Source: Chitinophagales bacterium
Lineage (GTDB): Bacteria; Bacteroidota; Bacteroidia; Chitinophagales; JADIYW01
Assembly (NCBI GenBank): GCA_023957245.1
Contig: JAMLHJ010000005.1
Coordinates: 64,309 to 128,308 of the forward strand
DNA: 64,000 nucleotides
Direction: 5' to 3'
The translations under genes were made by a program, and so were the position numbers. The stretch's first letter is position 1. Each line of letters begins with the position of its first letter. Under the pieces are notes generated by a model. The model saw nothing but the letters and a program-made list of their open reading frames with translations, had not been told where the DNA came from and ran no database searches. Shown here piece after piece: positions 55,449-59,537 of the stretch.

Positions 55449-55623
55449 GTATTATCAGAAACTTTCTATCTTTAATAAAATTTCAAATAGTATCTTTTTA
55501 AGATTCATAACACCAAATTATAAACAAATACTTCGGATATTGATTATTTGTTAGAAACAGGGGAATAATTTAAAAACTACCATTTAGTAATAATTAGTGA
55601 TAAATTGAATATTAACTATATAA

Positions 55624-55911
55624 ATGGCAAAAAGAGATTATAGCAACCTGACAAAAAACCAGTTGCTGAAAGGCAACCAATATATCGCTCTTACAGACCA
55701 CTTTAACTATTTTATTTATCTTATTCCTTGGTTTGACAACCAAGGCAACAAATATATCGCTCTTACAGAGCTACCAAGCAAAACATCTAGTAGTTATACA
55801 TCAACTATTGGAATATCATATATTGAGCCGCATAGCGGCGTAGTGTCGGTAACATGGAGCGTTAGCTCCGTGCATAACAAAACCAAGCCACAGCGTGGCG
55901 AAATAACTTAA
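55624..55911 (+). repeat. Hairpin cluster (REP/IS200-end-like) before the transposase gene
   Basis: This 290-base stretch contains at least six short perfect or near-perfect hairpins. They are GTTGC/GCAAC (55662-55677), CCTTGGTT/AACCAAGG (55726-55745), GCTCT/AGAGC (55759-55771), GCCGC/GCGGC (55827-55839), CATGGAGC/GCTCCGTG (55853-55872, loop GTTA) and GCCAC/GTGGC (55887-55899). A 26-base direct repeat (25/26) occurs at 55672-55697 and 55744-55769. An open frame of 95 codons crosses it, but I regard that as a by-product. The cluster ends five bases before the transposase gene. Confidence 0.7.
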
Positions 55912-55916
55912 TAAAA

Positions 55917-56378
55917 ATGGCAAATAGTTACACTCATCTATACATTCAGTTTGTCTTTGCTGTAAAATACAGAAATGCACTCATCTCAGAACATTGGGAA
56001 GCTGATTTATATAAATACATTACTGGCATTGTGCAGAATAATCATCATAAACTAGTTTGTATCAATGGCATGCCAGACCATATACATATTCTCGTTGGAC
56101 TTCATATTACTCAATCAATTGCAGATTTAATGAGAGATGTAAAAGCCAACTCATCTAAATGGATCAATGAAAACAATCTTACCAAAGAAAAATTTGAATG
56201 GCAAACTGGTTATGGGGCATTCAGTTATTCTAAATCTCATGTGCAAAATGTAATTAACTACATCAATAATCAAAAAAGACATCATCAAAAACAAACATTT
56301 ACTCAAGAATATATTACTTTCTTAAAAAAATTTGAAATTGAATATAAAAAAGAGTTTAGCTTTAAAGAATTAATATGA
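55917..56378 (+). mobile_element. IS200/REP-type tyrosine (HUH) transposase gene
   Basis: 153 residues, complete. It has the Y1 transposase fold: N-terminal THLYIQFVFAVKYRN, the HUH motif MPDHIHILV, GYGAFSYSKSHVQNVINYI with the presumed nucleophile Tyr, and NQKRHH. This family (IS200/IS605 TnpA and its REP-associated relatives, RayT) cuts and joins single-stranded DNA at hairpin-flanked sites. The hairpin cluster just upstream fits a substrate. No accessory gene (tnpB) follows. Confidence 0.85.
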
Positions 56379-56449
56379 CTATAAATTTAAAAGAATATCA
56401 AGTCAAGGCAATTAACCAATTATGGGAGGATTTTGACAACAATATTTAG
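56375..56449 (+). pseudogene. Truncated N-terminus, SF2 helicase/Res-like
   Basis: ATG 56375 overlaps the end of the transposase gene (ATGA). It reads 24 residues (MTINLKEYQVKAINQLWEDF then DNNI) before a TAG at 56447. LKEYQ.KAI resembles the Q-motif start of type III restriction Res subunits and related helicases. Nothing recognisable follows. It may be a gene stump or chance. Confidence 0.35.
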
Positions 56450-58158: not shown

Positions 58159-58180
58159 TAAATTTGTCAATAAATGACAA
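58159..58180 (+). promoter_or_regulatory. Promoter with overlapping palindromic operator of the restriction operon
   Basis: TAAATTTG (58159-58166) is a -7 element. The palindrome TTGTCA-ATAAA-TGACAA (58164-58180) overlaps its end and lies five bases before ATG 58186. This is the expected arrangement for self-repression by the XRE regulator encoded next. Confidence 0.55.
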
Positions 58181-58185
58181 GTCTA

Positions 58186-58500
58186 ATGAAAGAAACTTTT
58201 GGGGAATATATTAAGCGACTTAGAACTAAAAACGGTTTAACGCTTACTCAATTGGCAGCTAAATTAGATTTAGACTCTGCCAATCTTAGCAAAATAGAAA
58301 ATAACAAAAGAGAGTTTGACGAAAGGAGATTAACTCTTTTGTCTGAAGTTTTTAATTTAAATATTGACAAATTAAGAACTGAGTATTTTAGTGACTTAAT
58401 AGCTAAAAAAATCTATGAAAACAATTGCGATGAAGAAACTTTGACTTTAGCAGAAGAAAAAGTTGCTTACTTAAAATCTAAAAAAGACTTATTGATATGA
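58186..58500 (+). CDS. XRE-family controller protein of the restriction operon
   Basis: 104 residues from ATG 58186. The upstream ATG at 58174 lies inside the palindrome and is less likely. The helix-turn-helix (about 6-60) has [20 protein letters not shown] and [15 protein letters not shown]. The C-terminal part (about 65-104) is helical. It resembles regulators that accompany C5-methyltransferases and should time their expression. Its stop codon overlaps the methyltransferase start as ATGA. Confidence 0.85.
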
Positions 58501-59537
58501 ATATAGTATCTTTTTTTGCGGGTGCAGGCGGACTTGACCTTGGTTTCCAAAATGCAGGATTTAACGTTATTTGGGCAAACGAATACGACAAAGAAATTTG
58601 GGAAACTTATAAAAAAAACCATCCAAACACTATTTTGGACAAACGAAGTATTGTAAATATTCCGTCTGACGAAGTCCCCGAATGTGATGGAATCATTGGA
58701 GGGCCACCTTGTCAGAGTTGGAGCGAAGCTGGTGCAATGAAAGGGATTGCAGACAAAAGAGGTCAATTGTTTTATGACTTTATCCGAATTTTGGAAGCCA
58801 AACAACCTAATTTTTTTTTGGCAGAGAATGTAAGCGGAATGTTATTAGATCGCCATTCAGAAGCATTAGAAAATATCAAAGAACTATTTAGAAATGCTGG
58901 GGTTGGTTATGAACTTTCTTTTGAAATGGTAAATGCTTGTGATTACAATGTTCCACAAGATAGAAAAAGGGTGTTTTTTGTCGGCATCAGAAAAGATTTA
59001 GGTTTTACTTATCAATTTCAAAAGCCAAATTTCAAAAAATTAACTTTACAAGATGTTATTTGGGATTTAAAAGACAACGTCCTTCCTGCAAAAATAAACA
59101 ACAAAACTAACGGAAACAACTGTAAAATTCCAAATCACGAATATATGACAGGTGGTTTCTCTACTATTTTTATGTCACGAAATCGTGTTAGAAGTTGGGA
59201 CGAACAATCTTTTACTATTCAAGCTGGTGGTCGCCACGCTCCTATTCATCCACAAGCTCCAAAAATGAAATTTATAGAGCAGAATATTCGTGTTTTTGTC
59301 CCAGGAAAAGAAGAGTTATATAGAAGATTAAGCGTAAGAGAATGTGCAAGAATTCAAACATTTCCAGACGACTTTATTTTTCATTATGATAATATTTCTG
59401 CTGGTTATAAAATGATTGGAAATGCTGTACCAGTAAATTTAGCTTACTTTCTTGCTAATAGCATAAAAGCTCAACTATTGCAAAACGAAATAAAAAATCA
59501 AACTAAAATCATCAATAAAGAAGCTGTAGCCGTATGA
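58497..59537 (+). CDS. DNA (cytosine-5) methyltransferase, NgoPII-like
   Basis: 346 residues. Motif I is [12 protein letters not shown]; motif IV is [12 protein letters not shown] with catalytic Cys72; motif VI is ENV (110-112); motif VIII is [10 protein letters not shown] (154-163); motif X is [10 protein letters not shown]. The regions around these, such as [11 protein letters not shown], look like M.NgoPII, so the target is probably GGCC. It protects host DNA from the next gene's product. It overlaps both neighbours by four bases (ATGA), giving translational coupling. Confidence 0.93.

Follow-up and report, generated by a model that had tools for sequence, protein, structure and literature searches.

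Hairpin units beside TnpAY1 subclass 1.2 transposase genes and a candidate recognition array in a Chitinophagales genome

A stretch of 64,000 nucleotides from the Chitinophagales bacterium assembly GCA_023957245.1 (contig JAMLHJ010000005.1, positions 64,309 to 128,308 of the forward strand; hereafter the window, numbered from its first letter) carries a cluster of small hairpins at 55624–55916, followed directly by tnpA (55917–56378, forward strand), a gene for a Y1/HuH transposase of 153 residues. The question raised by this locus is what the hairpins do beside the gene. A first-pass annotation had proposed that they form a substrate array of the encoded protein comparable to a bacterial interspersed mosaic element (BIME), within the repetitive extragenic palindrome (REP) family. 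The cluster is probably an array of recognition units for the adjoining single-strand DNA transposase, in a REPtron-like arrangement of TnpAY1 subclass 1.2. The earlier proposal is thus retained in kind, as units flank homologous genes and are dispersed elsewhere, while the family that it named is wrong.

Transposase and hairpin unit

Hairpins were called by a relaxed rule (stem of at least 5 bp, at least three GC pairs and at most one G-T pair) and by a strict rule (at least four GC pairs and no G-T pair). Under the relaxed rule, 55624–55916 contains six hairpins (55662–55677, 55726–55745, 55759–55771, 55827–55839, 55853–55872 and 55887–55899), against a mean of 0.31 and a maximum of 3 in 1000 dinucleotide shuffles, so the density noted in the first-pass annotation is borne out. 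The strict rule gave four hairpins, against a shuffle mean of 0.055 and a maximum of 1. The predicted single-stranded DNA fold of the cluster region had an energy of −34.9 kcal/mol (z −2.9), equalled in 2 of 200 shuffles. A direct repeat previously given as 26 bases is present, with a length of 28 nt and one mismatch (55670–55697 and 55742–55769).

The transposase gene is intact and begins, as had been stated, five bases after the cluster, with its ATG at 55917 and the stop of a frame crossing the cluster at 55911. The protein matches PF01797 (E 1.7e-27), and the HuH histidines H55 and H57, the tyrosine Y115 and the glutamine Q119 are invariant in 22 aligned sequences, the window included (alignment A1, from which locus L005 was left out because of a stop codon). 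It carries DHIH, WQ and YINNQKRHH, in agreement with the subclass 1.2 signature (Y-x3-Q-x2-HH, DH[IV]H, WQ), published as Y-x3-Q-x2-HH, DHIH and WQ in the part of Quentin et al. (2018, PMC6006769) consulted. Y-x3-Q-x2-HH is present in 106 of 109 homologs. The earlier label of a REP-type HUH transposase is therefore correct as to HUH and incorrect as to REP type: the protein passed the IS200/IS605 model NF033573 (67.9 bits, cut-off 55) and failed the RAYT model NF047646 (31.7 bits vs 80), and it has Y..Q rather than the Y-x3-NP motif of class 2 (RAYT, TnpAREP). Its AlphaFold2 model (mean predicted local distance difference test score, pLDDT, 86.5) has the HuH/Y1 fold, and its nearest structural matches were the transposases of ISDra2 and IS608 (best E 6.3e-9), with TnpAREP 4er8 at rank 30 (6.2e-6).

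In the consulted part of the same classification, subclass 1.2 is listed with ‘no’ REPs and as generally lacking terminal hairpins (Quentin et al. 2018, PMC6006769). To this description we compared homologous loci, 31 from the window's own and related genomes (the related-genome search matched more than its 30 loci) and 80 named loci, taken from 568 confirmed relatives. Unit counts refer to the 109 loci remaining after removal of two duplicates, L039 (the same as L006, the tnpA locus of G012) and L113 (the same as L019), and the truncated homolog L004 stands outside the 109. Strict hairpins numbered 1.49 per 300 bp upstream of the gene (n=101) and 1.63 on its downstream side (n=105), compared with 0.096 for 3577 windows elsewhere in these loci, the densities covering loci with at least 300 bp of flank, still including both duplicates and resting on comparison windows that are mostly probably coding. 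This enrichment on both flanks contradicts the published description of the subclass, not its protein signature.

The typical unit in these loci has a definite plan: a GC-rich stem of 5 bp, a loop of 3–4 nt and a TAG foot exactly 10 nt 3′ of the stem. Within 400 bp of the gene lay 389 strict hairpins, of which 160 had TAG at a distance of 7–12 nt on one side only and seven on both sides, and 144 of the 160 one-sided cases, in 67 loci, had it at exactly +10 after the innermost 5-bp stem. Counted by offset with the window locus left out, 130 units had TAG at +10 and each of ten other offsets had 1–9. Units with TAG at +10 were concentrated near the gene, with 123 within 400 bp (83 kb), 18 at 400–1000 bp and 12 beyond 1 kb (1.05 Mb), and were present in 66 of the 109 loci. 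The closest unit had its foot toward the gene in 31/37 cases upstream and 35/49 downstream, and neighbouring hairpins were separated by 35–41 nt in 104 of 258 gaps. The recurrence of hairpin units with a fixed TAG at related genes in Bacteroidota suggests that the hairpins are a substrate of the enzyme.

The window cluster was then read with R1, a covariance model built from 46 units of other genomes with the window genome excluded; its E-values here refer to 2.4 kb searched. R1 recovered two units and two weaker matches. The first unit, GCCGC-ATA-GCGGC on the forward strand (55823–55856; 21.6 bits, E 7.5e-5), is followed after 10 nt by the foot TAA at 55850–55852. The second, GCTCT-GTA-AGAGC in reverse orientation (55742–55775; 20.8 bits, E 1.2e-4), has the foot TTG, also at 10 nt, and contains the second copy of the direct repeat. 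The first repeat copy corresponds to a degenerate reverse-strand unit with one stem mismatch and the foot TTG (55670–55703; 10.1 bits, E 0.1), and a partial forward unit, GCCAC-AGC-GTGGC followed by GAAATA (55887–55905; 11.5 bits, E 0.045), has its hairpin end 17 nt before the tnpA start.

The three other forward-strand features come from the hairpin scan: a 6-bp stem with a 4-nt loop (55662–55677); an 8-bp hairpin with a TGAC loop (55726–55745), the second hairpin of a compound unit; and an 8-bp hairpin (55853–55872) that begins directly after the TAA foot and has the GTTA loop and single G-T pair described in the first-pass annotation. As a mark of REP elements this loop does not serve, being one of many loops and found in 17 of the oriented, footed units in homologous loci. 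The REP foot GT[AG]G on the 5′ side was likewise not seen; the relatives carry TAG at +10 on the 3′ side and the window carries TAA or TTG. No hairpin array was found on the downstream side of the window tnpA. The degenerate feet together with the missing 3′ array suggest that the window copy may now be poorly mobile.

Foot type follows transposase lineage. In 17 of 20 loci the two flanks carried identical bases at the two positions before TAG, and foot class required 13 changes on the TnpA tree compared with 27.9 for shuffled labels (0/300 as low), the shuffles being uncorrected for shared descent; the smallest class, NG (10 loci), was not clustered on its own. Foot class also tracked the second stem base, GTCCC occurring with GG and GCxCC with NA (z 16.8). 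These associations fit co-adaptation and joint inheritance alike. In IS608, a guide sequence in the 5′ flank goes with the cleavage foot. An equivalent guide was looked for among the hairpin units and rejected, as no position of the 5′ flank stood out as varying with foot class.

Dispersed units and the Acido-Lenti-1 family

R1 was run over 149 genomes with up to 47 candidates scored in each, so that high counts are lower bounds. A match at E<=0.01 was found in 70 genomes. With tnpA presence taken at E<=1e-20, 49 genomes had both tnpA and a unit, 20 had tnpA only, 21 a unit only and 59 neither (Fisher p 4.5e-8, uncorrected for shared descent). Among the 150 unit matches listed, 42 lay by a listed tnpA and 108 lay away from one. 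In genome G013, close copies of the two-hairpin dimer that lies beside tnpA recur elsewhere in the assembly, on other contigs, and several are arranged as an inverted dimer pair.

The window's own genome gave a divided answer to whether the hairpins have other copies there. The exact cluster occurs once, and the exact sequence GGAGCGTTAGCTCC was likewise found once, with 5 matches at up to two mismatches, where the reversed control gave 3. A related dimer, GCCTC-GTA-GAGGC ... GCTCC-GTA-GGAGC, is present in at least 40 copies; when sought in 12 related genomes it was absent except for one 24-nt match. Of 30 copies fetched, 25 could be parsed, with the feet GG-TAA in 23/25 and TA-TTG in 13/25, and this resemblance to the window feet TAA and TTG is suggestive only. 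At one site, L215 2282–2870 (own genome C19:25281–25869), a dimer copy is embedded in an extended mosaic of intergenic repeats for which the sister genome G001 has no counterpart at the corresponding position; the site measures 589 bp in the own genome and 128 bp in G001. The dispersed copies seen in this genome are those of the related dimer, at most a putative substrate of this TnpA.

Several of these observations weigh against assigning the window hairpins to the window transposase, or the unit to the subclass. The window units lack TAG and have TAA and TTG instead. In the relatives, TAA at +10 was weakly raised (42, against 11 and 8 at neighbouring offsets), yet 38 cases occurred at +7, and TTG at +10 was not raised (14), so that TTG was dropped as a true foot variant and TAA is at best a weak one. 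There was no TAG+10 unit within 400 bp in 43 of the 109 loci, some of which, such as L003, end at a contig edge, and 222 of the 389 strict hairpins had no TAG foot on either side. A unit at E<=0.01 was missing from 20 of the 69 tnpA genomes. Conversely, G063, G036 and G039 have units (44, 12 and 12 scored matches) yet no Y1_Tnp match at E<=1e-5. The exact window cluster lacks a second copy in its own genome, and the uncorrected statistics on tree and genomes count here as well. Finally, the abundant dimers have other stems and lie inside longer repeats at both fully read sites, so that the window TnpA need not be their enzyme. For the three genomes with units and no Y1 transposase, loss of the gene, an assembly gap or another enzyme can each be envisaged.

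A further link is to an Rfam family. The window hairpins at 55726–55745 and 55759–55771 align end to end with RF01687, Acido-Lenti-1 (match at 55726–55772, forward strand; 32.6 bits, E 2.7e-5 in 1.2 kb searched), below the gathering score of 37 bits. The family (Weinberg et al. 2010, PMC2864571) is filed by Rfam as a small RNA (sRNA), and a recent paper, in the portion available to us, discusses whether it might regulate proteases of Tannerella (PMC13298647). In the accessible portions of open-access papers naming Acido-Lenti-1, no link to a transposase was found. The reverse complement of its consensus reads as a 5-bp hairpin, GGCATAAAT (9 nt), TAG and an 8-bp hairpin; as read from this consensus, the plan is that of the unit with 9 nt in place of 10.

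Among 395 genomes of the class, Acido-Lenti-1 was found at E<=0.01 in 60 and above the cut-off in 22, with up to 15 copies scored per genome, a number reached by five genomes whose counts are therefore lower bounds. At 30 of its loci, one per genome with up to 1.5 kb on each side, a subclass 1.2 gene was present in four (L251 being in the subclass 1.2 tally), against 1 of 66 control loci, and that sole positive control was the G001 stretch already known to hold its tnpA. All four loci had two or more units beside the gene, with further Rfam matches listed in three. Other results speak against the link: 26 of the 30 loci had no subclass 1.2 gene, as would be expected of dispersed copies; 0/19 other tnpA loci matched the family at E<=0.01; and a search of the own genome at E<=1 reported none among the 150 of 201 candidates that were scored, yet the window stretch matches when searched alone. 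On G253 contigs C52, C90 and C53, Acido-Lenti-1 copies form inverted pairs whose starts are separated by 160, 160 and 163 nt, a REPIN-like arrangement.

Taken together, we lean towards a broader proposal in which subclass 1.2 would be the enzyme of widespread Bacteroidota hairpin elements marked by TAG 10 nt 3′ of a 5-bp stem. These elements would have two forms, one with a plain foot and one in which another hairpin, of 8 bp, stands at the foot; Acido-Lenti-1 would be the second form, mobile DNA rather than an RNA gene, and the window units would be intermediate. On the narrower explanation, of an array of recognition units, the TnpA dimer would bind the hairpin while the DNA is single-stranded, as on the lagging strand; Y115 would cut at or beside the foot; and excision and reinsertion of paired units would build up the arrays and scatter copies elsewhere. 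Translation of tnpA might in addition be damped by the hairpin closest to its start codon.

Alternative explanations and the gained stretch

The hairpin cluster and tnpA are flanked on one side by a CBS-domain gene and on the other by an Omp85-like gene. The segment 55455–56510 is 1056 bp in the window and 97 bp at the matching site of G001, and the CBS and Omp85 genes adjoin without tnpA in G002 and G005 also; in the remaining genomes searched for this arrangement, the fetched stretch held no CBS match. From this comparison, the hairpin cluster came together with tnpA as a gain of about 0.96 kb net in the lineage, with approximate ends. A 24-codon open reading frame (ORF) follows (56375–56449, forward strand, MTINLKEYQVKAINQLWEDFDNNI), its ATG overlapping the tnpA stop; it had no Pfam match and, as a guess, may be a remnant of a gene that once followed. 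By eye, MTINLKEYQVKAINQLWEDFDNNI resembles the beginning of a helicase-type gene.

The alternative that survives best sees both array and gene as baggage in decay, perhaps left over from a restriction-modification context, with hairpins that are idle in this genome. The degenerate feet, the one mismatched stem, the lack of a 3′ array and the short ORF fused to the tnpA stop are all consistent with it; the intact tnpA with its catalytic residues speaks against it. We regard such decay as unlikely, without dismissing it, and it is compatible with the preferred explanation at the level of the family.

Control at the RNA level was also considered, with the hairpins forming, rather than a DNA substrate, a structured 5′ leader by which translation of tnpA is held down or transcripts reading through are terminated. 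Leaders of IS200 are structured and act in both of these ways. In 33 of the 79 gene flanks with a strict hairpin, the last of these ends 8–33 nt short of the start codon (17 nt in the window), and the similar Acido-Lenti-1 is filed by Rfam as an sRNA. However, hairpins are as dense downstream of the genes as upstream and occur in both orientations, mostly with the foot toward the gene; TAG is fixed at 10 nt; and units also occur away from tnpA. An exclusive leader function is thus quite improbable, and a leader role and a DNA role may coexist.

An ordinary IS200/IS605 insertion sequence (IS), with multiplied subterminal end hairpins and the whole element moving as one, would account for the passed family model, the fold closest to ISDra2 and IS608 and the gain relative to the sister genome. 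Against it, the element is single copy in its own genome, where the two nearest TnpA homologs are 56% and 53% identical and the third Y1_Tnp match is distant (35 bits), so that defined ends with near-identical genome copies are lacking. There are no hairpins 3′ of the window gene, and smaller dispersed forms exist. The ends of IS200 lie on one strand, unlike the relatives' units, which face each other across the gene. This alternative is accordingly held to have little probability.

The remaining alternative is that the 95-codon frame open across the cluster (55624–55911, forward strand) codes for a peptide with structure or for a small fused protein. In its favour is the openness itself, a forward frame of at least 95 codons having appeared in 16/5000 shuffles of the cluster. 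It is highly improbable and was rejected: the frame had no family match above cut-off and none in plasmids, and it is not conserved in homologous loci, where the median open stretch at 42 loci with at least two strict upstream hairpins was 47.5 codons and three reached 90, the window included. The earlier remark that no stop interrupts the cluster is accurate, and the fusion-peptide reading drawn from it is not upheld; we take the frame to be open by chance, to which the loss of TAG from the feet may have contributed. The start of the frame at 55622–55634 (AAATGGCAAAAAG) is closely similar to the tnpA start at 55915–55927 (AAATGGCAAATAG).

Some further features of the window and of homologous loci were recorded. 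In the window, 58174–59537, about 1.8 kb after tnpA, encodes a small protein that reads as a regulator of the helix-turn-helix type and then a cytosine methyltransferase matching type II restriction models. Seven loci have a gene on the strand of tnpA whose end falls −1 to +10 nt from where tnpA starts, five being defence-type (HsdR or type I restriction at L016, L017 and L118, a YhcG-type nuclease at L014 and RhuM at L099) and two not (a racemase at L112 and no family at L023). Hairpins are downstream only at L016, L017 and L023. In the own genome, tnpA of L003 overlaps the start of an HKD+Snf2 helicase gene, and the tnpA homolog at L004 (C19:188914–192207) is truncated, is preceded by CCCACGGTTTAAACCGTGGG hairpins and has a further hairpin immediately 3′ of it.

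Relation to known systems

What stands out most as new is that these sequence comparisons give an orphan transposase subclass a defined candidate for its hairpin substrate. An orphan subclass of single-strand DNA transposases would thereby gain a probable substrate, and a REP-like class with a candidate enzyme would be added in Bacteroidota. The boldest point is that an Rfam RNA family would belong to subclass 1.2; if true, Acido-Lenti-1 may be mobile DNA. No hairpin unit for subclass 1.2 turned up in the accessible parts of the open-access literature searched. RepRanger counts palindromes in Flavobacterium species, and the word ‘transposase’ is absent from its main text as far as available (PMC12306157).

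Compared with IS608 and ISDra2 of the IS200/IS605 family, the window system has the same HuH/Y1 fold and a hairpin with a presumed cut site a few nucleotides away; it differs in having no near-identical second copy, units on both strands and no foot-linked 5′-flank guide found. The CGTC-tagged palindromes are also palindromic repeats of Bacteroidetes, with the differences, in the part of the report consulted, of 8–9 bp stems, a terminal CGTC and no associated transposase genes (Di Nocera et al. 2013, PMC3733652). Acido-Lenti-1 shares the succession of a 5-bp hairpin, 12 nt and an 8-bp hairpin, and forms arrays beside subclass 1.2 genes, whereas the window match is below its gathering score and the family is filed as a probable RNA.

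The likeness to REP/BIME elements and to REPtrons with TnpAREP (RAYT) lies in a Y1 transposase gene surrounded by small palindromes of either orientation, in related copies dispersed elsewhere and in a foot that tracks the enzyme lineage. The transposase here is of class 1 (Y..Q) and RAYT of class 2 (Y..NP); TAG, placed 10 nt 3′ of a stem of 5 bp, takes the place of the GT[AG]G that REP elements have at the 5′ foot; and the spacing from one hairpin to the next is about 51 nt (a gap of 38 plus the hairpin). With TnpAY1 subclass 1.2, as described in the consulted part of PMC6006769, the window protein and its homologs share Y-x3-Q-x2-HH, DHIH, WQ, a length of about 150 residues, occurrence in Bacteroidota and low copy number, and they differ from that description in the hairpin units found within 400 bp in 66 of 109 loci.
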